A stretch of 62,528 nt of DNA. It comes from Kocuria sp. p3-SID1428 (lineage in GTDB: Bacteria > Actinomycetota > Actinomycetes > Actinomycetales > Micrococcaceae). The number at the start of each line of letters is the position of its first letter. Within the stretch, counting starts at the first letter, position 1. The notes beneath the pieces are model-generated. The model did no database searches. It was given only the letters and a program-made list of their open reading frames with translations, and was not told the origin of the DNA. A program made the position numbers and the translations under genes. Shown here piece after piece: positions 27,077 through 52,890 of the stretch. Where the stretch lies: positions 1 to 62,528 of the forward strand of contig NZ_JALXVH010000008.1 of NCBI RefSeq assembly GCF_025149945.1. The letters are read 5' to 3'.

Positions 27077-27107
27077 TCTGTGACGTCTCAGTACATCGGA
27101 AACACCC

Positions 27108-29329: not shown

Positions 29330-29393
29330 CCGCCGAGTGGATACCCAGTTGCGCTGTCGGGCGCAATAGCGCAACTGGGTATCCACTCGGCGG
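29330..29393. repeat. 64-nt palindromic repeat, copy A
   Basis: Core begins ccgccgagtggataccc and ends with its complement. The 26-nt left arm pairs perfectly with the right arm around a 12-nt centre. Flanks (29322-29329 ccctctcc, 29394-29400 agaggg) extend the stem. It sits between two convergent genes, 15 bp after one stop and 9 bp from the other, so it could terminate both. Confidence 0.9.
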
Positions 29394-29402
29394 GAGAGGG
29401 CC

Positions 29403-29732
29403 TCAGTGCGCGGCGCCGAGTTCGATGAGCAGCACGCCGCCGATGATCAGGGTGATCCCCAGGGTCATGACCCGGGTGAGCGGCTCCTTGAACAGGACGC
29501 GGCTGAGGATCGCGGTGAGGGCCACGCCGGCAGCTGCCCAGACGCCGTAGGCGACGCCCAGCGGCGTGCCCTCGGCGAGGGTCAGCGTGAGCATCGAGAA
29601 GGCCAGGACGTAGCCGCCGCCGATCGCCAGCCACCACAGCTTGGAGCCGGCGGCGGCCATGCGCAGGCTGAGGGTGGCGCTGACCTCGAAGAGGATCGCT
29701 AGGACGAGGGATGTCACTGCCAGGGGAGTCAT
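29403..29732 (-). CDS. SMR-family multidrug efflux subunit 2
   Basis: A 109-residue, four-helix small multidrug resistance protein. The membrane-embedded Glu of helix 1 is in 'LAILFEVSATLSLRMA', and the 'GVAYGVWAAAGVALTAI' helix 3 motif is typical of EmrE/EbrB. It overlaps the upstream SMR gene by 4 bp, so the two are translationally coupled. Paired unequal SMR genes (EbrAB, YkkCD type) usually form a heterodimer. Both are downstream of a TetR regulator. Confidence 0.92.
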   Translation of the reverse strand: MTPLAVTSLVLAILFEVSATLSLRMAAAGSKLWWLAIGGGYVLAFSMLTLTLAEGTPLGVAYGVWAAAGVALTAILSRVLFKEPLTRVMTLGITLIIGGVLLIELGAAH

Positions 29733-30100
29733 CGTGCAGTCGCCTCCTTCTGCTCGCGTGCGGTGTCCGGCGTGTTCTGAGCCTGTTGGGAGCCGATCTC
29801 GACCAGCAGCACGCCGCCCATCACGGCGGCGATGCCGATGCCCATGGGCAGGGTCAGGGGCTCGTGGAAGATCACGGCGGACAGGACTGCCGTCAGCGCC
29901 ACGCCGCAGGCGGCCCAGATGCCGTAGCCCACGCCCAGGCTCATGCCCTCGCGCAGGGCCTGGAACATGCACAGGAAGGCGGCGGCGTAGCCTGCGACCA
30001 CCACGGCGTAGAGCGCCGGGGCCTCCAGTGCTGCCTTCAGGGACAGCGTGGCGGTCACCTCCACCAGGATCGCCAGGGTCAGGAAGATCCACTTCTTCAT
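29729..30100 (-). CDS. SMR-family multidrug efflux subunit 1
   Basis: A 123-residue four-helix SMR protein, with Glu in 'LAILVEVTATLSLKAA' and 'GVGYGIWAACGVALTAV'. A hydrophilic C-terminal tail of ~18 residues (ending EQKEATAR) is longer than in its partner; in paired SMRs one subunit commonly carries such a tail. It overlaps tetR by 4 bp upstream and its partner by 4 bp downstream, forming a tight three-gene operon. Confidence 0.92.
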   Translation of the reverse strand: MKKWIFLTLAILVEVTATLSLKAALEAPALYAVVVAGYAAAFLCMFQALREGMSLGVGYGIWAACGVALTAVLSAVIFHEPLTLPMGIGIAAVMGGVLLVEIGSQQAQNTPDTAREQKEATAR

Positions 30101-30606
30101 GCGTCAGTCTCCTTCTCGAACAGGGACAGGGCGACGTCGAGCACGGCCGCGCGCTGATCGCGGTCCTGCGGGAGGATCCCCAGGCAGCGGTCGATCCAGG
30201 CGCCGTCGGCGAGATAGCGCACGGCGGCTGCGCGCGGATGCTCCAACGAGCCGAACCAGGCGTCCATCTGCTCGCCCCAGCGCACGGAGAGCTTCTCGCG
30301 CAGCCGGGGATCGGCGAACAAAGCGAGATCGGCGGTGTCCATCTCGCCGAGCAGCGCGAGCTCTGCGTAGGCGCGCAGCCGCTGCTCGGGGCTCGCGTCG
30401 GCACCGGCCCGCTCCGACAGCTCGCGCTCCCAGCGGGCGAGCAGGTGCTCCAGCACCGCGAAGGCCAGCGCTTCCTTGGTGGGGAAGTGGTGCACGACGC
30501 CGGGCTTGGTCAGCTTCGCCTCCTGCGCGACGGCGTCGATGGTCAGGGAGCGGCCATCGCGCAGGACGTCGAGGGCGGCGTCGAGGATCTGGGGGTTCGT
30601 CATCAT
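30097..30606 (-). CDS. TetR-family regulator of the SMR pair
   Basis: A 169-residue repressor. An N-terminal helix-turn-helix (SLTIDAVAQEAKLTKPGVVHHF, given in part as AQEAKLTKPGVVHHF) is followed by a helical ligand domain. It is the first gene of the tetR-SMR-SMR operon and should control it. A perfect 16-bp palindrome lies 12-27 bp upstream of its start, and a TATGGT hexamer ends 7 nt before the ATG. Repressor binding would therefore block its own promoter. The ligand is probably a cationic drug exported by the pump (inference). Confidence 0.88.
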   Translation of the reverse strand: MMTNPQILDAALDVLRDGRSLTIDAVAQEAKLTKPGVVHHFPTKEALAFAVLEHLLARWERELSERAGADASPEQRLRAYAELALLGEMDTADLALFADPRLREKLSVRWGEQMDAWFGSLEHPRAAAVRYLADGAWIDRCLGILPQDRDQRAAVLDVALSLFEKETDA

Positions 30607-30617
30607 ACCCTAAACCA

Positions 30618-30633
30618 TACCATACGTATGGTA
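30618..30633. promoter_or_regulatory. Palindromic operator of the TetR-SMR operon
   Basis: taccatacgtatggta is a perfect 16-bp palindrome overlapping the predicted promoter of tetR. On the minus strand the -10 TATGGT corresponds to 30614-30619. Size and position suit a TetR dimer. Confidence 0.65.
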
Positions 30634-30655
30634 GGTATCGATTCCGCCTCTCTCC

Positions 30656-30719
30656 CCGCCGAGTGGATGCCCAGTTGCGCTATCGGGCGGAACAGCGCAA
30701 CTGGGGATCCACTCGGCGG
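30656..30719. repeat. 64-nt palindromic repeat, copy B
   Basis: Same core as copy A with arms ccgccgagtggatgccc and ...ggggatccactcggcgg. One G-G mismatch is otherwise fully paired to the gcgct/agcgc closing pairs, with a 12-nt centre. Its right edge is 6 bp from the yeiH stop, so on the minus strand it follows yeiH directly and precedes the tetR promoter. Confidence 0.9.
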
Positions 30720-30725
30720 AGGGGG

Positions 30726-31769
30726 TCAGGGGGTGGCGAGGGCGATGCCTCCTGCGGCGATGCCGGCGACCAGCAGCGTGGACAGGGCCGCCAGGGCGAA
30801 GGGGCGGGCGCCCACGGCGGCCAGCGCTCGGAAGCGGACGCCGCAGCCCAGCCCGAACATCGCCGCGGCCAGCAGGAGGGTCTGCAGCAGCTGGGCACCG
30901 GCCAGCGCGGGGTCCGGGATGGGCAGCAGGGAGCGTACGAGCACCATGGCCAGAAATCCCACGACGAACAGGGGCACGACGGGCGGCAGCGCCCCGGGCG
31001 ATGCGTCGGGATCCGCGGCCTTCCGGGTCCGGCGGCGGTGCAGGCTCAGGATCGCGATGACCGGCGCGAGCAGCAGCACGCGGGCGAGCTTGACCACGAC
31101 GGCCGCGCTCAGCGCCCCGCCGCCGACGAACCCGCCGACGGCCACCACCTGGGCGATCTCGTGGATCGAAGCTCCAGCCCACAGCCCGGTCGTCTCCGCC
31201 TCCAGCCCCAGGGCTGAGCTGAGCAGCGGCACGATCCCGATCATGAGCGTCCCGAACAGCGCCACCAACGCGATCGCGGTGACGGCGTCCTGCTCACGCT
31301 CGCCGTGGGGATCACTCGCCCCGGCGGCCCCGGCCACCGCGGCGGCACCGCAGATCGAGAAGCCGCAGGCCACCAGCAGGCTCAGATGCCCGGGCACACC
31401 CAGCAGTCGGCCCAGGGTGAGCGTGCCGATGATCCCGCCGACGACGACGGCGAGCACGACGCCCAGCAGCGGCGCCCCCAGGGCCAGGATGTCGCCCAGG
31501 ACCAGCTGCAGCCCCAGGACGACGATGCCGGCGCGCAGCAGGTGGCGGGAGCTGAAGGCGATGCCCGCGGCACCGGCGCTCGGGAGCAGCTCCAGGTTGG
31601 CCGCGGCCATGCCCATCACGATGGCGCACAGCAGCGCGGGCAGTCCCGGCAGCAGCGCAGCGAGCCCCAGGGACAGCCCGGCGGCGGCCAGGCACAGCAT
31701 GATGCCGGGCACCAGGGCGCGCACAGTGCTGGCGGACGCCGGTGCTGCGGTGGTCCTGTGCGGGGTCAT
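30726..31769 (-). CDS. yeiH: YeiH-family putative sulfate exporter (UPF0324)
   Basis: A 347-residue membrane protein with about ten helices. Family marks are 'LLRAGIVVLGLQLVLGDI', 'LVACGFSICGAAAVAG' and 'WAGASIHEIAQVVAVG'. Proteins of this family are annotated as sulfate exporters; substrate evidence is thin. I start at ATG 31769 (MTPHRTTAAP), 14 codons after an earlier in-frame ATG. It is divergent from a LysR regulator 93 bp away, the same pairing as yeiH-yeiE in enterobacteria, so the LysR protein probably controls it. Confidence 0.85.
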   Translation of the reverse strand: MTPHRTTAAPASASTVRALVPGIMLCLAAAGLSLGLAALLPGLPALLCAIVMGMAAANLELLPSAGAAGIAFSSRHLLRAGIVVLGLQLVLGDILALGAPLLGVVLAVVVGGIIGTLTLGRLLGVPGHLSLLVACGFSICGAAAVAGAAGASDPHGEREQDAVTAIALVALFGTLMIGIVPLLSSALGLEAETTGLWAGASIHEIAQVVAVGGFVGGGALSAAVVVKLARVLLLAPVIAILSLHRRRTRKAADPDASPGALPPVVPLFVVGFLAMVLVRSLLPIPDPALAGAQLLQTLLLAAAMFGLGCGVRFRALAAVGARPFALAALSTLLVAGIAAGGIALATP

Positions 31770-31862
31770 CTGTCCATCGTCGCGAGTCCGCGCGATCGGC
31801 AGTAGAGGCATCTCCGTGCCGGGTCACAAGCTATCGTTGGATCTCGAGGCGATGGGGGCAGC

Positions 31863-32768
31863 ATGACGAGTGAGCCGGACCTGGAGTCCCTGCGCGCCCT
31901 CACTCTGGCAGCGCAGCACGGCAGCATCTCGGCCGCAGCGGCACGGCAGGACGTCAGCCAGCAGGCCCTGTCGCTGCGGATCCGCGCGTTGGAGAGGCAG
32001 CTGGGTCTCGCCCTGCTGGTGCGCTCGCCCAGGGGATCCCATCTCACGCCGTCGGGCGAGCTGCTGGTCGGCTGGGCCGCCCCTCTGCTGGCGGCCGCCG
32101 ACGACTTCGCCGCAGCGACCCGCTCCCTGCGCGAGTCCCGTGCGGACACCCTGCGCATCGCGGCCAGCCTGACCATCGCCGAGCACCTGCTTCCCCCGTG
32201 GGTGGCCCGCTGGCGCGCGCAGCGAGGCCAGGAGGGCCCTCTCGTACAGCTGCGCGCGGCCAACAGCAGCGCCGTCATCGAGTCCGTGCGTGAGGGGGCC
32301 GTCGACCTCGGACTCATCGAGACACCCGACCTGCCGCAGGACCTGGGGTGCGAGCAGATCGGCTCGGACACGGTGGAGGTCGTGGTCGACGCTGCGCATC
32401 CGTGGGTCCGTCGTGCCGCCGTCGCCGCTGACGAGCTCGCCCGCACGCCCCTGGTGCTGCGCGAGCCGGGCAGCGGAACCCGCCGGGCGCTCGAGGAGGC
32501 GCTGCTCCGGGCGGGCTACCCGCTTGCCGCCGAGCCCGCCGTGGTCTCGCCGACCACCCTGGGCGTGCGCAGTGCGACCATGGCCGGCACGGCTCCCGGC
32601 GCCCTCAGCTCGATCGCGGTGGCGGAGGACCTGCGGGCGAGACGACTCGTGCGAGTGCAGATCGCCGGCGTCGCGATCGCCCGCCCGCTGACGGCCATCT
32701 GGTCGAGCAGCCGTCCGAGCGCGGCAGCGCGCGCCTTCCTGTCGATGCGCGCCCGGCTCACCTCCTGA
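31863..32768 (+). CDS. LysR-family transcriptional regulator
   Basis: A 301-residue regulator. The N-terminal winged helix-turn-helix (AAAARQDVSQQALSLRIRAL) is followed by a periplasmic-binding-like effector domain with 'GAVDLGLIETPDLP' and the 'REPGSGTRRALEEAL' loop typical of the CysB/CbbR/YeiE side of the family. GGGGGC lies 5 nt before the ATG. Divergence from yeiH suggests it regulates that gene and itself from the shared 93-bp gap. Confidence 0.88.
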   Translation: MTSEPDLESLRALTLAAQHGSISAAAARQDVSQQALSLRIRALERQLGLALLVRSPRGSHLTPSGELLVGWAAPLLAAADDFAAATRSLRESRADTLRIAASLTIAEHLLPPWVARWRAQRGQEGPLVQLRAANSSAVIESVREGAVDLGLIETPDLPQDLGCEQIGSDTVEVVVDAAHPWVRRAAVAADELARTPLVLREPGSGTRRALEEALLRAGYPLAAEPAVVSPTTLGVRSATMAGTAPGALSSIAVAEDLRARRLVRVQIAGVAIARPLTAIWSSSRPSAAARAFLSMRARLTS

Positions 32769-32872
32769 GGGGCCTGCTGGGGTGGACGAGCCATAGTTGC
32801 TAGCGTCGGCATACGGGCTGATCAGAAGCAGGCCCGCTTCGATCGGCCGGCCGAGAACCGGAAGGGGCCGAC

Positions 32873-33526
32873 ATGCATCAGCGAACAGCATCCACCACCA
32901 CCACGGCACGACGACCGGCGACGCTGCTGAGCCTGGGGGCCGTCGCGGCCCTGGCGCTCAGCGCCTGCGCGGGGCAGGACTCCGGTGCGGAGGGAGACGG
33001 CGAGACCGCGTCGTCCGCCGCCGACAGCGCCGCCCTGGCGACCGCCGCGGCCCAGGACGGCGACGGCCAGGACGCCGGCACCGCCGAGTTCACCGAGACG
33101 GACGGCGGGATGGAGATCAGCGTCGATCTCGAGAACCTGGAACCGGGCCACCACGGCCTGCACCTGCATCAGGTCGGCGAATGCGAGCCGGACAGCGCCG
33201 CGCCGGACGACCCGTCGGACACCGGCGACTTCCTCTCGGCAGGCGGGCACCTGAATCCGGACGACGCGCAGCATCCCGACCACGCGGGTGACCTGCCGTC
33301 GATCCTGGTCCAGGAGGACGGCACGGCGCAGATCACCTTCACCACGGACAGGCTCGCCCAGGAGGACCTGCTCGACGACGACGGGACCGCGCTGATGGTC
33401 CACTCTGATGCCGACAACTTCGCGAACATCCCCGAGCGCTACGCCCCGGAGGGCGCCGACGAGGACAGCACCTCCACCGGCGATGCCGGGGACCGCGCGG
33501 CCTGCGGCGTGGTCGAGGAGGCCTGA
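32873..33526 (+). CDS. sodC: Cu-Zn superoxide dismutase, lipoprotein
   Basis: Destroys superoxide outside the membrane. The 217-residue preprotein has a lipobox LSAC (Cys ~32) and an acidic linker. The SOD fold has copper ligands in 'GLHLHQVG' and 'GGHL' and a last His in 'MVHSDADNF'. Zinc-site residues are visible in 'DAQHPDHAGDLPSI' (His, His, Asp), and the disulfide cysteines are GEC and AACG. Unlike mycobacterial SodC, the zinc ligands appear complete. The active-site Arg is not obvious: the usual GxR near the end is 'AGDRAACGVV', in which R likely serves. A strong SD (aaggggcc) precedes ATG 32873. Confidence 0.9.
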   Translation: MHQRTASTTTTARRPATLLSLGAVAALALSACAGQDSGAEGDGETASSAADSAALATAAAQDGDGQDAGTAEFTETDGGMEISVDLENLEPGHHGLHLHQVGECEPDSAAPDDPSDTGDFLSAGGHLNPDDAQHPDHAGDLPSILVQEDGTAQITFTTDRLAQEDLLDDDGTALMVHSDADNFANIPERYAPEGADEDSTSTGDAGDRAACGVVEEA

Positions 33527-33545
33527 GCCTCAGCCGCCCACCGCC

Positions 33546-33586
33546 CGACGACGCCCGCCGCACTGCCTGTGCGGCGGCCGTCGTCG
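33546..33586 (+). terminator. Terminator after sodC
   Basis: An 18-bp stem with one mismatch (33546-33563 with 33569-33586), 5-nt loop, then ttct; 20 bp after the sodC stop. Confidence 0.75.
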
Positions 33587-33632
33587 TTCTCGAGCCTGAG
33601 CGCCTGCCCTCCGATGACAGCTCCAGACCCCA

Positions 33633-33696
33633 CCGCCGAGTGGATAGCCAGTTGCGATGAAGGACCCCATGGCGCAAACGGGTATCCACTCGGCGG
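33633..33696. repeat. 64-nt palindromic repeat, copy C (degenerate)
   Basis: Ends ccgccgagtggata and tatccactcggcgg are conserved. The inner arms (gccagttgcg against cgcaaacggg) have two to three mismatches, and the 16-nt centre is unrelated to the other copies. Total length is still 64 nt. It lies between sodC and the MFS gene, which are both on the plus strand. Confidence 0.85.
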
Positions 33697-33762
33697 AGGG
33701 GGAGGTGCGGTATGGAGCCTGTGCTGCGCCCCGGATCGCGCGGCTGCCCACGATCGGGGGTG

Positions 33763-35043
33763 ATGACGACGGATCAGGATCAGGTCCCGGCTGGCGGGCC
33801 GTGCCGGGCGGCAGGGCCCCAGCGCCGCATCCTGCTGGTGCTCGTGCTGGGCCAGGTCCTCGGAGGGCTCGGCACCGGGGCCACGCTGAGCCTCGGGGCG
33901 CTCCTGATCAGCGAGCTCGCCGGCTCGTCGGCGTGGTCCGGAATGGCGGCCACCATGAGCACGCTGGGAGCCGCCCTGTTCGCACTGCCTCTGGCGGGCC
34001 TCGCCCAGGCCCGTGGCCGTCGGATCTCGCTGAGCGGGGGAGCCGTCACGGCCGCCTTGGGGGCAGTCGTCGCAGTGACGGCAGCGGACCTGGGCTCGGT
34101 GCTGCTTGTGCTGGCGGGCATCCTGATGCTGGGCGCCGCCCAGGCGGTGAACCTCCAGTCGCGCTTCGCCGCCACGGACCTGGCCGACCCGCGCAGCCGG
34201 GGGCGAGACCTGTCCCTGGTGGTCTGGTCGACCGCGATCGGGGCGGTGACGGGGCCCAACCTGCTCGGCCCCGGCGAGGTCGTGGGCGGTGCTCTGGGGA
34301 TGCCGCCGCTGACGGGGGTGTTCGCGTTCACCATGACGGCGCAGCTGCTGGCGGCGATCGTGTACCTGGTGGGGTTGCGTCCGGACCCGCTGCTCGCGGC
34401 CCGGGCAGGGGGCGCCGGCGTCGCGGGGGAGAAGGCGGCGGAGCCCGCGACGACGGCGCAGGAGCCTGTGGCCGAGCCGGTCAGACCCTGGCGGGCCATC
34501 CTCACGGTGGCGCTGAGCCACGGGGTCATGGTCGCCCTGATGTCCATGACGCCCGTTCACCTGCAGGACCACGGTTCGACGCTGAGCGTCATCGGCCTGA
34601 CCATCAGCCTGCACATCGCCGGGATGTACGCCTTCTCCCCGGTCTTCGGGATCCTGGCGGACCGCAGGGGAGCACGGACCACGGTGCTGCTGGGGCAGGC
34701 CCTGCTGGTGGGGGCGATGGCCCTGTCGATGCTCGGCTCGGAGTCCTCCGCCGTGGCGGTCGCCAGCCTGATCCTGCTGGGCCTGGGCTGGTCGGCCTCG
34801 ACGGTGGCCGGGTCCGTGCAGATCAGCCGCGCCGGGACGCCCGAGACGCGCTCGCGGATCCAGGGCAGCTCGGACACGGTCATGAACCTGATGGGTGCCT
34901 TGGGCGGGGCGAGCGCGGGACTGATCCTCAGCGCCGTGGGGTTCGCCGGACTGGCGGGCCTGCTGCTGGTGCCCGTGGCGGTGGTGGTCGCGTTCCAGCT
35001 GATGCCGCCCCAGACGCCGAGCGGGCGATCTTCTGCTGCATGA
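33763..35043 (+). CDS. MFS transporter
   Basis: A 426-residue major facilitator with twelve predicted helices in two halves. The half-dividing loop (~residues 205-240) is charged (EKAAEPATTAQEPVAEP). The first-half loop 'PLAGLAQARGRRISL' matches the MFS signature after helix 2. The start is ATG 33763 (MTTDQDQVP) with a G-run 3 nt upstream; GTG 33760 is equally possible. The substrate is unknown. The last eight codons form the left arm of a long hairpin, and its stop codon lies in the loop. Confidence 0.85.
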   Translation: MTTDQDQVPAGGPCRAAGPQRRILLVLVLGQVLGGLGTGATLSLGALLISELAGSSAWSGMAATMSTLGAALFALPLAGLAQARGRRISLSGGAVTAALGAVVAVTAADLGSVLLVLAGILMLGAAQAVNLQSRFAATDLADPRSRGRDLSLVVWSTAIGAVTGPNLLGPGEVVGGALGMPPLTGVFAFTMTAQLLAAIVYLVGLRPDPLLAARAGGAGVAGEKAAEPATTAQEPVAEPVRPWRAILTVALSHGVMVALMSMTPVHLQDHGSTLSVIGLTISLHIAGMYAFSPVFGILADRRGARTTVLLGQALLVGAMALSMLGSESSAVAVASLILLGLGWSASTVAGSVQISRAGTPETRSRIQGSSDTVMNLMGALGGASAGLILSAVGFAGLAGLLLVPVAVVVAFQLMPPQTPSGRSSAA

Positions 35044-35071
35044 GGTGCAGCAGGAGATCGCCCGCTCGGCG
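35015..35071. terminator. Long hairpin over the MFS stop codon
   Basis: A 26-bp stem with one mismatch (35015-35040 with 35046-35071) and a 5-nt loop that holds the MFS stop codon TGA (35041-35043). It lies between convergent genes, 16 bp before the gltS stop, so it can terminate both. Confidence 0.85.
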
Positions 35072-35086
35072 AGTCCGGGAAGCTTC

Positions 35087-36526
35087 TCAGGCGCTGGCCC
35101 GGTCGTCCGCGGTGAGGTCGAAGGCGGGATTGCGTCCGAAGTAGAACAGGCCCGACAGCACCGCCACCAGCAGCAGGGTGGCCATGATCCCCAGCAGCGG
35201 GTACGGGCCGAACTGCACGATCAGCGGGATCGAGGCCGCGGTGACCAGTCCGCCGCCGAAGAACGGCTCGAAGATCAGCTGCTTGTAGCCGAAGGACTCG
35301 TAGGCGGGGGTCTTGGCCTCCGGGTCGGCCATGCGCATGAGCATCAGGCCGGTGGCGGTCACGCCCATCGACTGCCCGAAGTCGCCCAGGCCGCGCTCGA
35401 ACCAGTACGAGCGGATGAACCGCGGGGCCAGCACGAACAGCACGAACACGTTCCAGGCGATGCCGGCGATGGCCAGGATCGCGAACGGCGCGAGGTTGTC
35501 GGCGATGGCCGTCAGGGACAGCGTGGCCAGCGCGGCGACGATCAGGAAGTCCAGCGACATGCCCTGGATGCGGTCCATCATGCCGCGGTCGACCAGGCCG
35601 ACGGTGTCGAACCGGTCCAGGACCATCTGCACCAGCACACCGCCGAGCATGGCCAGCGGGAAGAGGGGGACGAAGGCGAAGATCTCGACGACATCGGCCC
35701 ACAGCGCCGCCTCGATCGCCTGCAGCGCCGAGAGCATGAGCCGGCCGAGCAGCACGGCGACAGCCACGAAGGCCACGTGCAGCGTCAGCGTCTCGATGGC
35801 CGCCGAGCGGGTGGTCTCGCGGCCGGCCGAGGGCTTGTCATCGCCCGCGTACAGGCCACGGCGCTCCCAGAGGGGCATCTGGGCATCGGCGTGCAGCTCC
35901 GCGGTGTGGCCCTTGCGGGCCGCCCAGTTCACGGCGAAGACGCCGACGACGACGCCGGTGAGGATGCCGACGGTGGCCATGGCCAGCGCGAGGTCGCCGC
36001 CGTGGTCGAAGCCCAGCTCCGTCATGACCGGGGCCATGCCGGCGGCGGTGCCGTGGCCGCCCTCGAAGCCGATCTCGATCAGCGCGCCGAACATGGGGGT
36101 GACGCCGAACAGCGGGGACAGCACCAGGATCACCAGCAGCAGGCCGACCACGTACTGGCCGGAGCCGAAGGTCACGCCCAGGGAGAGCTGGGGGCCGAGC
36201 AGCTTCACCGCTCGCTTGGGGGAGGGGATCGGGCTGCCCAGGAACAGGGTGGCGAACACGACGCTGATCAGGAGTCCGGGCAGGGTGCTCCAGACCTCCA
36301 TGACGTTCGCGCCGAAGATCCCGCCCTCCACGAGCGAGTCGACGCCTGCCGCGCCGGCGATGCGCCCCAGGATCTGGGGGCCCAGGATGAGTCCCAGGAA
36401 CCCGGCGATGATCGACACGGGCAGGAACAGTCGCTGGGTGAGCCCCCAGCTGGCGCGGATGAGCGTTCCGGCCGCTGCGAGCACGCCCAGCAGCAGGATC
36501 GCCAGCCCGATGGTGGTCGGCTGCAT
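35087..36526 (-). CDS. gltS: Sodium/glutamate symporter (GltS family)
   Basis: A 479-residue membrane protein with two inverted repeats of helices. The GltS reentrant-loop motifs appear as 'GPQLSLGVTFGSGQYVVG' and 'FEGGHGTAAGMAPVM' in the first half, and 'GVTATGLMLMRMADPE' in the second half. A hydrophilic stretch (~residues 215-250, with ELHADAQMPLWERRG) links the halves. The start ATG 36526 is preceded by GGGAGGG. Sodium-coupled glutamate uptake is the family role; with the glutaminase elsewhere in the window it fits glutamate metabolism, though no linkage is shown. Confidence 0.88.
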   Translation of the reverse strand: MQPTTIGLAILLLGVLAAAGTLIRASWGLTQRLFLPVSIIAGFLGLILGPQILGRIAGAAGVDSLVEGGIFGANVMEVWSTLPGLLISVVFATLFLGSPIPSPKRAVKLLGPQLSLGVTFGSGQYVVGLLLVILVLSPLFGVTPMFGALIEIGFEGGHGTAAGMAPVMTELGFDHGGDLALAMATVGILTGVVVGVFAVNWAARKGHTAELHADAQMPLWERRGLYAGDDKPSAGRETTRSAAIETLTLHVAFVAVAVLLGRLMLSALQAIEAALWADVVEIFAFVPLFPLAMLGGVLVQMVLDRFDTVGLVDRGMMDRIQGMSLDFLIVAALATLSLTAIADNLAPFAILAIAGIAWNVFVLFVLAPRFIRSYWFERGLGDFGQSMGVTATGLMLMRMADPEAKTPAYESFGYKQLIFEPFFGGGLVTAASIPLIVQFGPYPLLGIMATLLLVAVLSGLFYFGRNPAFDLTADDRASA

Positions 36527-36616
36527 GATGTTGTGACCCTCCCAGGGTTCAGTGATGTGATTCACCGGACACTATCAGGAAGCGCGAGTCACATTCCCCC
36601 CACCGTCCCACCCCCT

Positions 36617-36680
36617 CCGCCGAGTGGATACCTGGTTGCGCTATCGGGGCGAATAGCGCAACCAGGTATCCACTCGGCGG
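36617..36680. repeat. 64-nt palindromic repeat, copy D
   Basis: The most perfect copy: 28-bp arms pair without mismatch around an 8-nt centre. Relative to copy A two base pairs differ (C-G to T-A and A-T to G-C), changed on both arms. Flanks ccaccccct and ggtggggagg lengthen the stem. It lies 14 bp after the broken peptidase gene stop and upstream of gltS, both on the minus strand. Confidence 0.92.
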
Positions 36681-36694
36681 GGTGGGGAGGGGGG

Positions 36695-37410
36695 TTAGGA
36701 GGCCTTGGAGGCCTTGGAGAGCTTGGAGAGGATCGCCGTCATCGCCGCCGCGTAGCCTGTGCTCAGCGTGGGCTCCATGACCGGCAGGAACTGCGGTGAG
36801 TGATTGACCGGGACATCGTCGGCGGCCATCTGCTCCTCCGTGAATCCGCCGAAGAACCAGAACACCGTCGGCACCCCGATCGACTCGGCCAGCGTGCCGA
36901 AGTCCTCGGAGCCCATGAACGGCTTGCCGTCGACCACGTTCTGCTCGCCCAGGACCCCGACCAGGTGCTCGCGCAGGGCCTCGGTCTCCTCGACGTCGTT
37001 GAGGTTGCGCGGGAAGCGGTAGAGCTCCTCGATCTGCGGCTCGGGCGCCCCGGACGCGGCGTCCACCGCCGAGATGATCCGGCGCACCGCCGCCAGCACG
37101 GGCCCGCGGACGGTGTCGTCCAGGGAGCGGATGTTGAGGGTGAACTCCGCCGTGGCCGGGATGATGTTCTCCTTGAGCCCGCCGTGGAACGTGACCACCG
37201 TGACGACGGCCGACTGCAGGGCGGAGATCTCGCGCGAGACCACCGTCTGCAGCCGGGTCACGATGTGCGCGCCCAGCACGATCGGATCCATCGAGTTCTC
37301 CGGCTGCGAGCCGTGGGACTGGCGTCCGCGCAGGGTCAACCGCCAGGAATCGGCATAGCTCATCACGGGCCCGGCCGTCAGGCGCACCGTGCCGGAGACC
37401 CCCGATGTCT
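36695..37410 (-). pseudogene. M20-family amidohydrolase, C-terminal fragment
   Basis: About 235 residues match the C-terminal two thirds of hippurate-hydrolase-like M20D peptidases. These include the lid domain 'LRGRQSHGSQPENSMDPI' and a metal-region Glu in 'FMGSEDFGTLAESIGVP'. The N-terminal catalytic part with the first metal ligands is missing; upstream sequence is the antisense of the neighbouring regulator fragment. The last residues form a short repeat (SKLSKASKAS) from a tandem ggaggccttggag DNA repeat. It is probably inactive, and is one of three truncated genes meeting here. Confidence 0.85.
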
Positions 37411-37424
37411 TCAGTATCGAGCGC

Positions 37425-37957
37425 TGCCATCGCGGCCGGGACATGATGCTGACCGTGATCACGCCGGCGCTGATGCGGCTCACCGAGCATGTCTATCCCC
37501 ATCTGGATCAGGTCCCGGGGCTGAATCCAGTCACGATCCGACGCCAGCTGCGCCAGGTCCTGGACAGCGGAGCCGTGACGATCCGCTGCGAGACCTCGCA
37601 CCGCGCCGCCGGCTTCCCCGCGGTGTGCGAGTGGTTCTGCAGGCTGCCCGCCGCCGAGCACGAGGACGCAGCGGCCGCGCTGCGGAGCATGAGCTCGCTG
37701 CGGCTGTGCACGTCGCTGACTGAGCCGGCGAACTTCAGCTTCCTGATGTGGGTGCGTTCGCCGGCCGAGATCATGACGGTCGAGCAGCGCATCGCCGCCC
37801 GCATCCCGGGCCTCGAGGTGCTGGAGTCCGTGGTCATCACGGAGATCCCCAAGCGGGTCGGGCGGTCCTGGACGTCGACGGACGCTCCACGGGCCAGGTC
37901 GTGCTGCCGGGCCGGCCTGGGGCTGAGCTGCGTGCGCCGCGCGTCGAGCACCGGGCC
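37425..37957 (+). pseudogene. Lrp/AsnC-family regulator, truncated and frameshifted
   Basis: The sequence matches the second half of two-domain AsnC regulators: 'LNPVTIRRQLRQVLDSGAV' (second helix-turn-helix), then the ligand domain 'LRLCTSLTEPANFSFLMW' and 'GLEVLESVVITEIPKRVGR'. The N-terminal helix-turn-helix is missing. Just after KRVGR (~37863) the homologous tail continues in another frame (VLDVDGRSTGQVVLP), so one base has been lost. The second frame runs directly into a glyoxalase fragment. Confidence 0.8.
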
Positions 37958-38302
37958 GGCACGCCCAAGCTCGCGACCTTCGCCGACTTCGGCGCCGTCC
38001 CGACCGGCAGCGAGCACGCCGACAAGATCATGCACGGCGCCCTGGAGATCGATGACCTGATCCGCCTCTACGTCTCCGACTTCGTGGAAGGCATGGCCCC
38101 GGGCGAGGTCGTGAAGGGCAACGACATCACCCTGGCGGTGATGGGAGAGGACTCCGACGAGCAGCGCCTCACCGCGATCTTCGCGGGCCTGTCCGACGGC
38201 GGCACCGTGACCATGCCGCTGGGCAAGCAGATCTGGGGCGGGATCTACGGCGCGGTGACCGACCGCTTCGGCATCTTCGGGCAGATCAACATCGGGGGCT
38301 GA
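37958..38302 (+). pseudogene. PhnB-like VOC/glyoxalase protein, N-truncated
   Basis: From ~37967 the frame reads 'KLATFADFGAVPTGSEHADK' then 'VKGNDITLAVMGEDSDEQRL' and 'DRFGIFGQINIGG', the C-terminal ~115 residues of PhnB-type VOC proteins. The first 20-25 residues of the family, with the first beta strand and metal ligand, are absent. They are replaced by the tail of the regulator fragment in the same frame. A fused product is possible but probably non-functional. Confidence 0.78.
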
Positions 38303-38450
38303 GCGCTCCGGCTCCGTTGCCGTGATCGCCTCACGAGGCCATCACGATCCCGTCACGATCGGGACTGCTGCTGCCTCGTGCGGTGGCGCTGCTCCGGAGT
38401 CGATGGTTGCGTGGGGTCCTCAAGACTTCCGTGCCTCGAGGAGGAGCTCC

Positions 38451-38960: not shown

Positions 38961-38978
38961 GGTCTGGATCGCAACGAT

Positions 38979-39011: not shown

Positions 39012-39029
39012 GTCGTCGTGCGTGATGCG

Positions 39030-40514: not shown

Positions 40515-40574
40515 CCCTGCACTGTGCACCTCATGACATTCCGGATCCGGCATCTGGGGGCTGGCTCACGTAGC

Positions 40575-42734: not shown

Positions 42735-43181
42735 GACGGTGTGCAGGTCTCGGGGTGCAGCTGTCCGCACTTGCGCCCACCTGAGCTCTGCGATCTGAGG
42801 CGGGTGCCCCCTTCCTTCCCAGGTCGGAGGCGGATTGCGAAGAAGTGAAGATTCATGAGAAGACAGGTTGCTTCACCGTCTATTTCACGGATCGCCTCGG
42901 GCAGAGGAGCATGGGTGGAGTGATCCGACAGTGCGGGGTCTCCGGCTCGGCCGTGAGACCCGGCCATCGGGTCCGTCGGCGCGCAGCATCGGGGGGTGCG
43001 GCGCGCCGGATGAGCTCAGCTGCAGTAGTCCGAGTGGTCTCTGCGGTCGGGCTCTGGGCCGGGTCCGGTCGGGGGGCCGGACCCGGCCCGCTTTCACGCC
43101 TGAGCCCCACCCTGCCCGGCGATGCCCCCGCGGACTCGTCGAGGTCCTTGTGCTGTCGGAGTCGGGCGGGAGACTTCCCGC
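42735..43181. other. 447-bp gap before recQ
   Basis: I find no convincing gene on either strand. The only clear structure is a 13-bp hairpin at 43056-43089. The part around 42836-42900 is locally AT-richer (gaagattcatgagaagacagg) and may hold a promoter, but no clean hexamer pair is visible. Confidence 0.55.
43056..43089. terminator. Hairpin upstream of recQ
   Basis: A perfect 13-bp stem (43056-43068 with 43077-43089), 8-nt loop, followed by gctttc. It lies 320 bp after the acyltransferase stop, too far to be its obvious terminator; it may be left from a lost gene or act in the recQ leader. Confidence 0.55.
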
Positions 43182-45350
43182 ATGAGCCAGCACATCCGTC
43201 CCGCTGAAGACGTCTCCGGACTCGAGTCGGAGGCCCTCGAGCTGCTGCGCGCGCTGACCGGCCGCCCGGATGCCGTCTTCCATCCGGGACAGTTCCAGGC
43301 CATCTCCGCGCTGGTGGCGGATTCCCGTCGGGCTCTGGTCGTGCAGCGCACGGGCTGGGGCAAGTCCGCCGTCTACTTCATCGCGTCCCTGCTTCTGCGA
43401 GCCCGCGGGGCAGGCCCCACGCTGATCGTCTCGCCGCTGCTGGCGCTCATGCGCGACCAGGTCGCCGCCGCCGAGCGGGCAGGCGTGCGCGCGGCCTCCA
43501 TCAGCTCGGCCAACGCCACCGAGTGGGGGCAGATCCTCGAGCGGCTGGGCCGGGATGAGGTCGACGTCCTGCTCGTGTCTCCGGAACGGCTCAACAACGC
43601 CCGGTTCCGACAGGAGCAGCTGCCGGATCTCCTGCGGCGCATGGGGCTGCTCGTGGTGGATGAGGCCCACTGCATCTCGGACTGGGGCCACGACTTCCGC
43701 CCGGACTACCGCCGGATCCGCGATCTGATCGCCCAGCTGCCCAGCACCGTGCCCGTGCTGGCCACCACCGCCACGGCCAATGAGCGCGTCGTGCACGACG
43801 TCGAGGAGCAGCTCGGCGTGGGGGTCGTGGACGAGCAGCGGGCGCCCGTGCTGACGCTGCGCGGCCCGCTGGCCCGCGATTCCCTGCGCCTGGGCGTGCT
43901 GCGGATGCCGTCGAACACCGTGCGCCTGGCCTGGCTGATCGAGCACCTGGGGCAGATGCAGGGCTCGGGGATCATCTACGCCCTGACCATCGGCGCGGCC
44001 GAGGACACCACGCAGGCGCTGCGAGACGCCGGGCATGATGTCTGCTCCTACACCGGGCGCACGGACCCCTCGGAGCGCGAGCAGCTCGAGCAGGAGCTCA
44101 AGGACAACCGGGTCAAGGCGCTCGTGGCCACCTCGGCGCTGGGCATGGGCTTCGACAAGCCGGATCTGGGGTTCGTGATCCACCTGGGGGCGCCGTCGTC
44201 GCCGGTGGCGTACTACCAGCAGGTCGGTCGTGCGGGTCGCGCCACGGACAGCGCGGACGTCCTGCTGCTGCCGGGCAGCGAGGATCGGGAGATCTGGGAG
44301 TACTTCGCCACCGCGTCCATGCCCACCGAGGCCAAGGCCACCGCAGTGCTCACCGCTCTGGAGCAGCACGGCGGGCCGCTGGGACCGGGGGCACTGGAGG
44401 CGCGCGTGGACATCAAGCGCACCGCGCTGACCCTGCTGCTGAAGGTCCTGGCCGTGGACGGGGCGGTCGAGCAGGTGCAGGGCGGCTGGCAGGTCACCGG
44501 CCGCCCCTGGCACTACGACTCCGAGCGCTACGACCGCATCCGCCGCGCCAGGGTGGACGAGCAGAACGCCATGCTGGACTACCAGAACAGCTCGCGGTGC
44601 CGCATGCAGATGCTGATCGAGCAGCTCGATGATCCCCACGCCGAGCCCTGCGGACGCTGCGACAACTGCGCGGGGCCGTGGTACTCGGATCACGTCAGCC
44701 GGGATGCCTCGCAGGCGGCCACGTCGTCGCTGCAGAAGGTCGGGGTGCTGATCGAGCCGCGCGCCCAGTGGCCCACGGGCATGGATCGGCTCGGCGTGCA
44801 GGTCAAGGGGAGGATCCCGGAGGAGGAGCGGGCGCAGAACGGCCGGGCCGTCGCGCGCCTGACCGATCTGGGCTGGGGAAATCGCCTGCGGGAGATCTTC
44901 CACGACGACGCAGACGGCCGCCCCGTCGATCAGCAGGTCGATCCCGCCCTGGGCAAGGCCGCCATCGAGGTGCTGGCGGCTTGGGATTGGCAGCGCCGTC
45001 CGGCCGGCATCGTGGCCATGCCGTCGATGTCGCGCCCTCAGTTGGTCTCCTCTCTCGCCCAGGGGCTGTCCCAGGCTGGCCGCATGCCGCTGCTCGGGGA
45101 GCTCGGCCTGGCGGAGGGCCACCCGCGGCAGGGCTCCGGGGGCAACGGGGCCTACCGCCTGGCTGCGGTCTGGGAGCGCTTCGTGGTCACGCCGCAGGTC
45201 CAGCAGGGGCTCGACCAGCTCCAGGGCCAGCCCGTGCTGCTGATCGACGACCTCGTGGACAGCAGGTGGACCCTGACCGTGGCCGCACGCGAGCTGCGCC
45301 GCGCCGGCTCGGGACCCGTCCTGCCGTTCGTGCTGGCCTCCCGGGGCTGA
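43182..45350 (+). CDS. recQ: RecQ-family helicase fused to a phosphoribosyltransferase-like domain
   Basis: A 722-residue DNA helicase. Motif I is 'QRTGWGKSAVYF' (residues ~55-66), motif II is 'LLVVDEAHCISDWGHDFRP' and motif VI is 'QQVGRAGRA'. A RecQ zinc-binding region follows with cysteines in 'SRCRMQML' and 'PCGRCDNC'. Instead of an HRDC domain, the last ~110 residues resemble a PRTase: 'RPQLVSSLAQGLSQAGRMP' and the PRPP-loop-like 'VLLIDDLVDSRWTLTVAAREL'. Such fusions are known in actinobacteria. The usual Asp-Asp-x-x-T/S-T-G ending is altered to DDLVDSRWT, so PRPP binding is doubtful. ATG 43182 has GGGAGA upstream. Confidence 0.9.
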   Translation: MSQHIRPAEDVSGLESEALELLRALTGRPDAVFHPGQFQAISALVADSRRALVVQRTGWGKSAVYFIASLLLRARGAGPTLIVSPLLALMRDQVAAAERAGVRAASISSANATEWGQILERLGRDEVDVLLVSPERLNNARFRQEQLPDLLRRMGLLVVDEAHCISDWGHDFRPDYRRIRDLIAQLPSTVPVLATTATANERVVHDVEEQLGVGVVDEQRAPVLTLRGPLARDSLRLGVLRMPSNTVRLAWLIEHLGQMQGSGIIYALTIGAAEDTTQALRDAGHDVCSYTGRTDPSEREQLEQELKDNRVKALVATSALGMGFDKPDLGFVIHLGAPSSPVAYYQQVGRAGRATDSADVLLLPGSEDREIWEYFATASMPTEAKATAVLTALEQHGGPLGPGALEARVDIKRTALTLLLKVLAVDGAVEQVQGGWQVTGRPWHYDSERYDRIRRARVDEQNAMLDYQNSSRCRMQMLIEQLDDPHAEPCGRCDNCAGPWYSDHVSRDASQAATSSLQKVGVLIEPRAQWPTGMDRLGVQVKGRIPEEERAQNGRAVARLTDLGWGNRLREIFHDDADGRPVDQQVDPALGKAAIEVLAAWDWQRRPAGIVAMPSMSRPQLVSSLAQGLSQAGRMPLLGELGLAEGHPRQGSGGNGAYRLAAVWERFVVTPQVQQGLDQLQGQPVLLIDDLVDSRWTLTVAARELRRAGSGPVLPFVLASRG

Positions 45351-45359
45351 GTCGGAGCC

Positions 45360-45412
45360 CTCCCGCGAACATGGGGTGCTTCGGCTGCTTCCGCGGGCAG
45401 GTTCCGCGGGAG
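45360..45412 (+). terminator. Possible terminator after recQ
   Basis: ctcccgcgaac (45360-45370) pairs with gttccgcgggag (45401-45412) with one bulge around a 30-nt loop, 10 bp after the recQ stop. The loop is large, so this is tentative. Confidence 0.4.
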
Positions 45413-45441
45413 AGCGCGGCGCCCGCGCCTCTACCGTGCTT

Positions 45442-45470
45442 TTGACCCGCTCCAGCGGGCCGATTAGAGT
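45442..45470 (+). promoter_or_regulatory. Promoter of tRNA-Ser
   Basis: TTGACC (45442-45447) and TAGAGT (45465-45470) are exactly 17 bp apart, the best sigma70-type match I noticed in the window. It lies 57 bp before the tRNA. Confidence 0.75.
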
Positions 45471-45526
45471 GTCGTTCGCTGTTTCATCAGGAGAGTGCCG
45501 TTGTGCACCCTTCTTGGCGACAGCAA

Positions 45527-45615
45527 GGAGACGTGCCAGAGCGGCCGAATGGACTTCACTGCTAATGAAGGATCCGGGGAGACCTGGATCGGGGGTTCAA
45601 ATCCCCCCGTCTCCG
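45527..45615 (+). tRNA. tRNA-Ser (anticodon GCT)
   Basis: An 89-nt type II tRNA. Acceptor ggagacg pairs with cgtctcc, the anticodon loop is 'ctgctaa', a long variable arm is built from gatccggggagacctggatc, and the T arm is 'gggggttcaaatcccccc'. Discriminator G at 45615. CCA is not fully encoded. Confidence 0.97.
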
Positions 45616-45622
45616 CCCTTGT

Positions 45623-45671
45623 CCTGAGTCGCGACATCGTTGACAGACGATGTCGCGGCTCAGGCTTTTTT
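45623..45671 (+). terminator. Terminator after tRNA-Ser
   Basis: An 18-bp stem with one internal mismatch (45623-45640 with 45647-45664), 6-nt loop, and a run of T after the right arm: the most classical intrinsic terminator here. Confidence 0.9.
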
Positions 45672-45830
45672 CGTATGGGTTCGTCTTCTCCGCCAGCAGG
45701 CTTCTCACGCAGTCGAGCTGTGTGTGAAACCCTGGTCGATCACGGAGCGGACGATGGCGATCTGGCCACTGGGTGCTGAATCGGCATCGTCCCTGCGTCC
45801 ATCCTCTCCTCTTCTCGAAGGCGCATCGGC

Positions 45831-46850
45831 GTGAGCACAGCAGCTGATCAATCGTCCACCTCCGGGCCTCGCGAGTCCGCCGGCACCCAGGGCGGCGGCA
45901 GCTCGTTCACGGTCATCCTGGCGTTCGCGGCAAACCTGCTGGTGGCCCTGGCCAAGTCAGCCGTCGCGGCCTTGAGCGGATCGGCGTCCATGGTGGCCGA
46001 GGCAGCCCACTCCTGGGCCGATACCGGCAACGAGATCTTCCTGCTGGTGGGCGAGCGGCGCTCACGTCGGGCCCCAGATGCCACTCACCCGCTGGGTTAC
46101 GGCCGTGCCGGGTACGTCTGGGCGATGTTTGCCGCGATCGGGCTGTTCGCCGTGGGCTCCGGAGTCTCTATTTGGCACGGCTTCCAATCCTTGGGCGGCG
46201 AGGGCGAGGACGGCGGCTACGGATGGGCCTATCTGGTGCTCGGGGTGTCGTTCGTGCTCGAGGGGACGTCGTTCCTGCAAGCGCTGCGCCAGGCCCGCTC
46301 CGGGGCGCGCACCCGTCGCATCAGCCCGCTGCGCTACATCCGCACGACCTCCGATTCGATGCTGCGCGCGGTGTTCGCCGAGGACGCGGCCGCGCTGCTC
46401 GGGCTGCTGATCGCCGGCAGCGGCCTGGTCCTGCATCAGATCACCGGCAATGCGGTGTGGGATGCTCTGGGCTCGATCCTGGTCGGCGTGCTGCTGGGGA
46501 TCGTCGCGGTGGTGCTGATCCGCCGCAACGTCCAGCTGCTCACGGGCGAGGGCGGCTCGGCGCGCGGGCGCAACCGCCTGCTGTCGATCCTGCTCGAGCA
46601 TCCCGATATCGAGTCCGTGAGCCTGCTGCACACCGAGTGGGTCGGCGCCGACAAGCTGTTCGTCGTGGCCTCCGTGGACGTGACCGGAGATTCCCGTGAG
46701 TCGGAGCTGCGCACCAGGGTCCAGGCGGTCGAGGACCTGCTGGAGAAGGAGCCCGTGGTGCAGCGCGCGCTGCTGACCCTCACCCGGCCCGGCGACCAGA
46801 CCCGCCTGAGCCTCGAGCCGCTTCCGCAGCGGTACCGCAGCGAGTCCTGA
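45831..46850 (+). CDS. Cation diffusion facilitator transporter
   Basis: Exports divalent metal ions such as zinc in exchange for protons. The 339-residue protein has six helices. The first metal-site motif HxxxD is 'AAHSWADTGNEIF'. The second half-site sits in 'EDAAALLGLLIAGSGLVLH' and 'WDALGSILVG'. A C-terminal cytoplasmic regulatory domain (residues ~225-330, VSLLHTEWVGADKLFVVASV) follows. The GTG start at 45831 follows a clean upstream region but lacks a strong ribosome-binding site. It converges on the NCS1 permease gene with 33 bp between stops. Metal specificity cannot be read from sequence. Confidence 0.9.
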   Translation: MSTAADQSSTSGPRESAGTQGGGSSFTVILAFAANLLVALAKSAVAALSGSASMVAEAAHSWADTGNEIFLLVGERRSRRAPDATHPLGYGRAGYVWAMFAAIGLFAVGSGVSIWHGFQSLGGEGEDGGYGWAYLVLGVSFVLEGTSFLQALRQARSGARTRRISPLRYIRTTSDSMLRAVFAEDAAALLGLLIAGSGLVLHQITGNAVWDALGSILVGVLLGIVAVVLIRRNVQLLTGEGGSARGRNRLLSILLEHPDIESVSLLHTEWVGADKLFVVASVDVTGDSRESELRTRVQAVEDLLEKEPVVQRALLTLTRPGDQTRLSLEPLPQRYRSES

Positions 46851-46883
46851 CCCAGCCCGCCGGGCACCGTGCCCGTGTCCTTC

Positions 46884-48374
46884 TCAGGCCCGGGCCGCCG
46901 TCTGCTCCTGACGGCGGATGCGGCCCCGTCGGGCGAGAAGCGTCACCATGAACGAGAGCACCAGGGCAACCAGCACGCCCAGGTTGGACCCGGCCCAGGT
47001 GCCCTCCGGGCCGCCGACCAGACCGAAAAGGTAGCCCTGCCAGCTGTTCCAGGGGGCCGTCTCGGCGAAGGCGTTGAGCACCAGTCCCCAGCCGATCACG
47101 GAGGCGACGACCATGGTGAGCAGCGAGATCCAGTCCACCGACCCGTAGCGGCCGCCGGCATCGAAGAGCGCCGCCTCGTCGTAGTCCGAGCGACGGGTGA
47201 GAACATCCGCGATGAGGATCCCCGCCCACGAGGCCATCGGCACGCCCAGGGTGATGAGGAACGACTGGAACGGGCCGATGAAGTCCTGGGCGAAGAAGAC
47301 CACCCACAGGGTGCCGGCCGTGAGGATGAGTCCGTCCACGGCGGCCGCCGCCGGTCGCGGGATGCGGATCCCCAGCGAGAGCAGCGTGAGCCCGGAGGAA
47401 TAGATGCCGAGCACCGCCCCGGAGACCAGCGTCAGCACGGCCACGATCCAGAACGGGATGAGCGCCCACAGCGGCAGCAGCGTGCTCAGAGCGCCCACGG
47501 GATCAGCGCCGATGGCCTCGGCTAGCTGCGGGTCGGAGCCGGCCAGCAGCAGCCCGAAGAGCACCAGCACCACGGGGGCGCAGGCACCGCCGATCGTGTT
47601 CCAGGCGACGATGGCGGCATCCGAGGTCGAGCGGCGCTGATACCGGGACCAGTCGGCCGAGATGTTGATCCAGCCGAGTCCGAATCCCGTCATGACCATC
47701 ACGAATGCGCCGACCATCTGCTGCGCCGAGCCGGCCGGGGCGCTCAGGACGGCATCCCAGCGGATGTGGGGAATGGTCAGGGCCATGAAGACGATCGTGG
47801 CCGCACCGGTGAGCCAGGTCAGCACCGACTGCAGCCGGATGATCGTGTGGTAGCCGAGCACGGAGGCCGTGACGATGAGCAGGGCCACCACTGCCGCGGC
47901 GGTGACCATCACAGCCCCGCCCGCTCCCCAGCCCAGTGCGCTGAAGACCGTGCCGGTGGCGAGCACGGCGGTGATCGCCAGGGAGGTCTCCCATCCGATC
48001 GAGGTCAGCCACGAGATGATCCCCGGGACCTTCTGCCCGTGCACTCCGAAGGCCGCACGCGAGAGCACCATTGTGGGCGCACTGCCGCGCTTGCCGGCGA
48101 TCGCCACGAGGCCGCACAGCGCGAAGCTCACGATGATCCCGACGACGGCCACCGCGCTCGCCTGCCAGACCGAGATGCCGTAGCCCAGCAGGTAGGAGCC
48201 GTACGTCATCCCGAACACGGAGATGTTGGCGGCGAACCAGGGCCAGAACAGGTCGCGGGGTCGGGCGGTGCGCTCGTGCTCGGCGATGATCTCGATGCCG
48301 GTGCGCTCCAGCAGGGCGCCTGGGCGGTCGTCGTGGCGGGCGCTCGTCGGCGCGGTGGGCTGCGCAGCGGACAT
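46884..48374 (-). CDS. NCS1-family purine/cytosine permease
   Basis: A 496-residue transporter with twelve helices. NCS1 marks include 'ERTARPRDLFWPWFAANIS' at the N-terminus, 'LSRAAFGVHGQKVPGIISW' and 'GLGWINISADWSRYQ'. It probably imports cytosine, purines or allantoin-type compounds by proton or cation symport. ATG 48374 has GGAG with a 6-nt spacer. A second in-frame ATG at 48404 follows GGGGAGGGG and would add ten residues (MFCRFRSESL). Repeat copy E lies just upstream. Confidence 0.88.
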   Translation of the reverse strand: MSAAQPTAPTSARHDDRPGALLERTGIEIIAEHERTARPRDLFWPWFAANISVFGMTYGSYLLGYGISVWQASAVAVVGIIVSFALCGLVAIAGKRGSAPTMVLSRAAFGVHGQKVPGIISWLTSIGWETSLAITAVLATGTVFSALGWGAGGAVMVTAAAVVALLIVTASVLGYHTIIRLQSVLTWLTGAATIVFMALTIPHIRWDAVLSAPAGSAQQMVGAFVMVMTGFGLGWINISADWSRYQRRSTSDAAIVAWNTIGGACAPVVLVLFGLLLAGSDPQLAEAIGADPVGALSTLLPLWALIPFWIVAVLTLVSGAVLGIYSSGLTLLSLGIRIPRPAAAAVDGLILTAGTLWVVFFAQDFIGPFQSFLITLGVPMASWAGILIADVLTRRSDYDEAALFDAGGRYGSVDWISLLTMVVASVIGWGLVLNAFAETAPWNSWQGYLFGLVGGPEGTWAGSNLGVLVALVLSFMVTLLARRGRIRRQEQTAARA

Positions 48375-48423
48375 CAGGGACTCCGATCGGAAGCGGCAGA
48401 ACATCGAACCCCTCCCCACCCAC

Positions 48424-48487
48424 CCGCCGAGTGGATACCTGTTTGCGCTAAAGGGCTCAACAGCGCAACTGAGTATCCACTCGGCGT
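48424..48487. repeat. 64-nt palindromic repeat, copy E
   Basis: Ends ccgccgagtggatac and gtatccactcggcg are conserved. A 4-bp internal loop (ctgt against ctga) interrupts the stem, and the gcgct/agcgc closing pairs and 12-nt centre are kept. Flanks (48409-48423 C-rich, 48488-48503 G-rich) lengthen the stem by more than ten pairs. It is 27 bp after the peptidase stop and upstream of the NCS1 permease start, both minus strand. Confidence 0.9.
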
Positions 48488-52870: not shown

Positions 52871-52890
52871 GAGAGAAGGGGCGGGGCGGA

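Follow-up and report, generated by a model that had tools for sequence, protein, structure and literature searches.

A dispersed family of palindromes

The window analysed here, the whole stretch of Kocuria DNA with a length of 62,528 nt, contains five near-perfect palindromes of a single common length in the vicinity of gene ends (copies 1-5, Table 1). This raises the question whether they belong to a dispersed family, and what such an element might do at the end of a gene. All five copies are located where the preliminary description had placed them, and four of them lie within ~30 nt of a stop codon, as it had reported, also according to our own gene calls; the exception at 33633 is found 107 nt past the stop. 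The length of 64 nt applies to all five, while the description of each copy as running from CCGCCGAG to its complement fails at the right end of the fifth (48475-48487, 1 mismatch). An alignment of the five copies comprises 104 columns with 0 gaps. In DNA folding they are more stable than 200 dinucleotide shuffles by 8 to 13 sd (z -8 to -13). An Rfam scan of the window at gathering threshold returned two tRNAs and no other match, and the palindromes match no curated family. Nor was a description of this palindrome family found in the literature covered, outside which subscription papers mostly lie.

Table 1. Palindromic elements of the window with neighbouring genes and orthologous places in the nearest genome compared (G001).
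Element	Position	Core	Neighbouring genes	Orthologue in G001
1	29330..29393	29332-29391 (60 nt)	convergent gap: DcuC-type carrier gene (+, ends 29314) / SMR gene (-, ends 29403)	L047:6738-6797
2	30656..30719	30658-30717	tandem, 3' end of Cons_hypoth698 gene (-, ends 30726)	L047:8090
3, degenerate copy	33633..33696	33635-33694	between sodC (+, ends 33526) and MFS gene (+)	
Sixth copy, older dialect (GCCGAGCGGGCGATCT...)	35015..35071		between MFS gene (+, ends 35043) and - strand gene (ends 35087)	
4	36617..36680	36619-36678	tandem, 3' end of M20 dimerisation domain gene (-, ends 36695)	L047:11676
5	48424..48487	48426-48485	tandem, 3' end of S9 peptidase gene (-, ends 48514)	L048:8099

The sixth copy, which overlaps the end of the MFS gene, had been overlooked in the preliminary description.

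A covariance model trained on the five copies, as had been proposed there, recovers both strands of all of them by construction (E 4e-24 to 3e-13) and yields further places in the window and in the nearest relative. The two extra places in the window are 34994-35094 (E 2e-9), which contains the palindrome of the sixth copy, and, weakly, 52791-52891 (E 2e-4), a seventh. In 1-27 kb, for which an absence of the element had been noted, there are 0 matches up to E 10. The nearest genome compared (G001, genus Kocuria by inference) has 28% of sampled 31-mers in common with the window, and the main aligned blocks show 85-97% identity. Here the model finds at least 34 places with the element (E<=1e-3), a minimum count since the scoring covered 150 of 624 candidates. 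The family is thus not restricted to the copies of the window, and the claim of its dispersal holds in relatives. Copies in G001 are strongly clustered, with eight at 1.555-1.565 Mb occupying 8 of 10 successive gene junctions.

The genus was then covered by a search for the exact caps (GCCGAGT + 36-60 nt + ACTCGGC) with the reversed pattern as control. At least one match is present in 16 of 27 genus genomes. Exact-cap matches, including a few coding chance matches, amount to 26 in G001, 20 in G025, 18 in G002, 24 in G008 and 31 in G019; the reversed pattern gives 0-4 throughout and 0-2 for the latter four genomes. The caps are shared across genus members, while the inner words differ between genomes and agree within one, like dialects. 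Copies of the window dialect begin with GCCGAGTGGAT and finish with its complement. Two or three dialects coexist in some genomes, and a class of 72-nt palindromes is present in other genus members. Order-wide, with the total length set to 58-62 nt, at least one match occurs in 85 of 396 genomes. Many of the matches listed are evidently due to chance and show no inner pairing; among them are also palindromes with dialects of their own in several other families of the order. The pattern of the window dialect has 0 matches in genome_contigs, a set from which the nearest records may be absent. We regard the existence of a dispersed palindrome family as near certain.

Two half-sites at a locked distance

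The element consists of two inverted half-sites of ~24-26 bp each, made up of the outer cap GCCGAGT and dialect-specific blocks. The centre between them is free in sequence and fixed in length, resulting in a total of 60 or 61 bp. When the arms were sought separately with a free spacing of 40-110, 125 of 126 pairs were found to span 60 or 61 nt, at loci preselected by cap or model matches that bound the length to ~50-74 nt and not to 60 or 61. The strict length asserted in the preliminary description is thereby borne out. By set, the span is 60 in 40/40 (window and G001), 61 in 19/19 (G008), 60 or 61 in 30/30 (G019) and in 12/12 (G002), and for the two dialects of G025 60 in 14/15 and 61 in 10/10. 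Copies at divergent junctions are likewise of fixed length. Ordinary hairpins in the same loci vary widely in length. In eight genomes searched at wider spacing, the palindromes among the matches listed are mostly 60 or 61 nt long, some 64 or 72. Departures from the consensus concentrate in the loop, which varies freely in sequence at constant length: the central 12 nt take 151 of 266 departures in 33 window-dialect copies.

Placement at gene ends

Placement was evaluated for 128 elements from six genomes. Of the convergent junctions, 61 of 149 contain an element, compared with 45 of 419 tandem and 14 of 131 divergent ones; these fractions are relative since the loci were picked around elements and the genes called with a home-made caller. 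Convergent junctions are favoured over the rest with an odds ratio of 5.8 (p about 1e-15, which is only a guide because the copies are related). The median distance from an element to the nearest stop is 17 nt, and 86 of 112 elements lie within 30 nt. The 14 divergent junctions count against a reading as gene-end elements; possibly they include errors of the gene calls. Overall, the placement of the family at gene ends is well supported.

An ordinary hairpin is rare in convergent gaps that contain an element. A strong ordinary hairpin is found in 59% of 61 convergent gaps without element versus 11% of 54 gaps with element, where it would be a second one. The contrast is weaker at matched gap length: element-free gaps of ≤80 nt have a hairpin in 27% of 26 cases, and where a gap with element leaves 30 nt or more free, the figure is 30% of 20, compared with 54% of 50 element-free gaps of ≤130 nt.

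We tentatively favour the interpretation, with a probability of about 0.47, that the elements are species-specific palindromes in the place of terminators at 3' ends, chiefly of convergent genes, and mark where transcription stops in either direction. The element would stand in for the terminator hairpin at gene 3' ends, above all in convergent gaps, and RNA polymerases arriving from either side would stop at it.

In G001, each of the three 5S genes found is followed by 2-4 copies, some of them degenerate. Among 21 5S loci of 15 genomes, each covered for 300 nt or more on the downstream side, elements occur only in G001 and in none of the 20 others, the element-rich G002 included. The pattern at 5S ends was rejected as proof of termination, since it is seen in G001 alone and G002 is negative.

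RNA fold or DNA sequence

The placement just past stop codons, the rarity of a further hairpin beside the element and the very stable folds (calculated with DNA parameters) are also what ordinary bidirectional RNA hairpin terminators would show, duplicated by chance and dependent on the RNA fold alone. This explanation is unlikely in view of several differences. No U-tract follows the elements: behind 45 tandem copies, the next 10 nt contain 1.6 T on average. Moreover, G-U mismatches are no more frequent than A-C mismatches on the transcribed strand of tandem copies (20 vs 30 over 24 bp, p 0.20), a test weakened by mismatches inherited within a dialect. The element differs from intrinsic terminators further by a conserved primary sequence and by a loop whose length is fixed despite its free sequence.

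Pairing between the arms leaves a mixed picture. The 12-nt flanks pair slightly above chance (6.03 vs 5.56, sd 0.12). The arms covary weakly in the window dialect (0.120 vs 0.101, sd 0.008), and in G019 no more than shuffled ones; in the dialect G025a, positions 17-18 vary yet pair in 11/11. In the window dialect, the two arms of one copy are only slightly more alike than arms of different copies (1.75 vs 2.09 mismatches of 6), with 66 of 5000 shuffles as good. Together with the missing G-U bias, these results are no weaker an argument for sequence blocks read at a fixed distance than for an RNA fold, which may still be what counts. A putative protein would then bind the paired half-sites. Our best reading is a REPIN/BIME-like family without RAYT, whose members would act as bidirectional gene-end signals read by such a protein.

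A 6-nt unpaired zone was rejected as a general feature, as it is clear only in the window dialect.

The uptake sequences of Neisseria are very many single short words. The Kocuria element resembles them by its repeated words, by dialects with a conserved core and by inverted pairs at gene ends; it differs by its few copies (about 35 in G001, not very many single words), by long half-sites and by the rarity of single arms outside palindromes. Hence a DNA-uptake-type signal with dialects that doubles as a terminator, as in Neisseria (terminator hairpins formed by uptake sequences are reported in PMC2267715), is very improbable.

Evolution of the sites

Four pairs of orthologues can be compared between the window and G001. 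Of the 60 core positions, 0 differ for element 1, whose core is identical, 15 for element 2, with every change in the variable zones, and 11 and 9 for the other two. Altogether the changes affect 35 of 96 variable versus 0 of 144 block positions, all 35 in the zones 12-17 and 25-36, the zones being drawn after viewing the alignment that contains these copies; inside the elements there are 0 indels. The primary sequence had been described as conserved, which agrees with dialect blocks that remain unchanged between orthologues. In similarity the orthologues rank 1, 21, 16 and 3 of 27 copies. Two of them (ranks 21 and 16) are no closer than unrelated copies, which argues for a fast rewriting of the variable zones by mutation or exchange. 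Beyond these pairs, G001 is without the sodC segment that holds element 3. The gene to the left of element 4 is missing as well, and the alignment restarts at the element.

These data fit the alternative offered in the preliminary description, shared descent or recognition by a protein. Dialect-wide words argue for descent, and the unchanged blocks of the orthologues combined with the locked spacing suggest a reader protein, although exchange between copies instead of selection could mimic the constancy of the blocks.

A second comparison was made with a K. palustris-like genome (G040); the S9 peptidase of K. palustris is 88% identical to that of the window. It covers eight gene ends of G001 or the window whose gene occurs in the G040 DNA compared, and leaves out most G001 neighbour genes, a paralogue match of 36% identity and repeat flanking genes. 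Six of the eight sites are without element. At the other two, behind the genes for the S9 peptidase (element 5) and SelO, the position of the element is taken in G040 by a palindrome of 60 nt that belongs to another, older dialect. Four element-free sites were aligned (Ldh, a 533-aa gene, Pyr_redox and M20) and are too diverged to display a target-site duplication. The older dialect accounts for 2 of 16 exact-cap matches in G040, and because both fall at exactly these two sites, chance is an improbable explanation. The window copy at 35015-35071 belongs to this dialect, too, and shares its inner words with the two G040 palindromes.

A wider form of the favoured interpretation is rather unlikely: a gene-end code across Actinomycetales, in which a putative DNA-binding protein or enzyme reads inverted half-sites with a fixed total span of about 60-62 bp. 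By means of a roadblock or cruciform it would stop transcription arriving from either direction, and reader and element would evolve together. A genome could then switch its dialect while the gene-end sites stay. If the favoured interpretation is right, what separates many convergent pairs in these high-GC bacteria would be a repeated element, not a terminator evolved separately for each pair, and the element sequence would change from species to species with some sites fixed. Two questions would then become accessible to tests: by what means converging RNA polymerases are halted in bacteria of this kind when U-tract terminators are missing, and in what way REP-like palindromes can spread when RAYT is absent.

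Mobility and comparison with known repeats

RAYT is the mobilising enzyme known for REP-like palindromes. The corresponding Y1 tyrosine transposase domain (PF01797) was found in 0 of 27 genus genomes, a set that lies beside the window's own genome, and in 5 of 14 control rings. A RAYT/IS200 partner was hence rejected. In G001, no insertion sequence came to light that carries these ends and could be the parent: of 64 arm matches, 62 belong to the 34 palindrome places and two lie beside 5S genes. An autonomous element sharing the terminal repeats, as expected for MITEs, was thus not seen in G001. No recurrent transposase or recombinase near the elements is among the 25 of 175 neighbour families listed (130 of 192 proteins), a listing that misses rare families such as the IS110 gene. 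An IS110-type transposase gene (L045:7432-8652) does lie beside 5S-linked copies of G001, as came out of a check of ten proteins, nine of them hand-chosen neighbours of elements or of 5S-linked copies and one a repeat; it would be wrong to state that there is no transposase nearby.

A selfish non-autonomous mobile element (REPIN- or MITE-like) served by an enzyme in trans, with the bias to gene ends resulting from purging of insertions elsewhere, is possible but doubtful. It would account for dialects that differ by species, for bursts of a single word within a genome, for clustering such as that of 8 copies within 10 kb of G001, for the 6/8 comparable G040 sites without element and for the adjoining IS110-type gene. 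It is at odds with the lack of PF01797, of a parent insertion sequence and of a recurrent transposase described above, with the preference for convergent over divergent gaps and with a length that is fixed even in divergent copies. With the favoured interpretation, new copies would arise by a duplicative process, in which a putative enzyme may read the same sequence, such that each lineage accumulates its own dialect.

A phage or plasmid origin was rejected: element 4 of the window has 0 matches in plasmids and phages, a G008 element has 0 in plasmids, and three dialect patterns have 0 in viral contigs.

Integron attC ends read RYYYAAC/GTTRRRY, in contrast to GCCGAG/CTCGGC in the Kocuria element. 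Folded single-strand recombination sites of the attC type that bound exchangeable genes could explain the paired blocks, the variable, partly unpaired zone and the variable tip of the window dialect. A tendency of elements to lie at junctions with gene gain or loss points in the same direction (4/6 vs 6/16 for window/G001, 2/3 vs 6/15 for window/G040, 6/7 vs 6/12 for G001/G040); these trends are not significant (p 0.35, 0.56 and 0.17). As the flanking genes are of mixed orientation and the partly unpaired zone is not general, we consider attC-like sites highly unlikely. A role as boundary of gene cassettes was dismissed as well, being a trend only.

Enterobacterial BIMEs and gyrase- or IHF-binding palindromes are bound by proteins and occur at 3' ends and between convergent genes. 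The Kocuria element is similarly placed at 3' ends and in convergent gaps; it is one compact unit and not a mosaic, and the likeness is one of description. With the REPIN/REP-RAYT systems of Pseudomonas and E. coli it has in common that short extragenic palindromes occur in tens of copies with species-specific words and two inverted units. It differs by the missing Y1 transposase in the 27 genus genomes and by its 60-61 nt with locked spacing. The failed test for RAYT and the lack of a U-tract place the family in neither the REPIN/BIME nor the terminator group, but as a variant of dispersed palindromic repeats. The tags differ, too, with GCCGAGT caps in Kocuria versus the GTAG or CGTC tags that the title of PMC3733652 names. 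In the dialects G019 and G025a, GTAG is located within the paired arm (positions 6-9) and not as an end tag.

Family copies at 5S genes and an adjoining transposase

In G001, the nearest relative genome compared, two to four copies of the gene-end palindrome family follow each of the three 5S genes found (loci L038, L045 and L049), part of them in degenerate form. In contrast, family copies are absent downstream of the 5S gene at 20 other readable loci, i.e. those with at least 300 nt of downstream DNA. One group of the 5S-linked copies is adjoined by an IS110-type transposase gene. Members of IS110, for example ISPpu9, insert into REP sequences, hence the gene-end palindromes may be the target of this transposase.

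Coordinates of the features (window unless a G001 or relative locus is named)
Feature	Position	Remarks
IS110-type transposase gene	L045:7432-8652 (G001)	PF01548, PF02371; adjoins 5S-linked copies
Palindrome, 60 nt, different words	52811-52870	between convergent genes; weak match to covariance model
Long palindromes (44-76 nt) near S9-type gene	L239, L248, L254, L287, L298, L301 and others
Direct repeat, 72 nt	27064-27135 and 27499-27570	89% identity between copies; contains hairpin
Perfect palindrome, 60 nt	27628-27687	GGTTGGTGACAGATCTGCACC..., unlike main family

Other repeats and a probable exchange at tRNA ends

Palindromes with other words also lie close to the S9-type gene of relatives, mainly Arthrobacter kin, with at least one long palindrome per locus in 10 of the 80 loci examined. 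A 72-nt class capped by GCCGAGTCCCC occurs in the genus members G022, G016, G004, G015 and G009.

In the first copy of the direct repeat, a T-run follows the hairpin. The retrieved G001 DNA holds one full copy of the GGTTGGTGACAGATCTGCACC... palindrome (L046:10537); at the orthologous site just its initial bases remain, as after a deletion.

Window positions 20912-21420 and G001 L048:5576-6084 share 509 bp at 99% identity, compared to ~90% in the flanking DNA, which points to a recent exchange at tRNA ends. The segment lies 3’ of one tRNA in the window and, in G001, after a block that ends at another.
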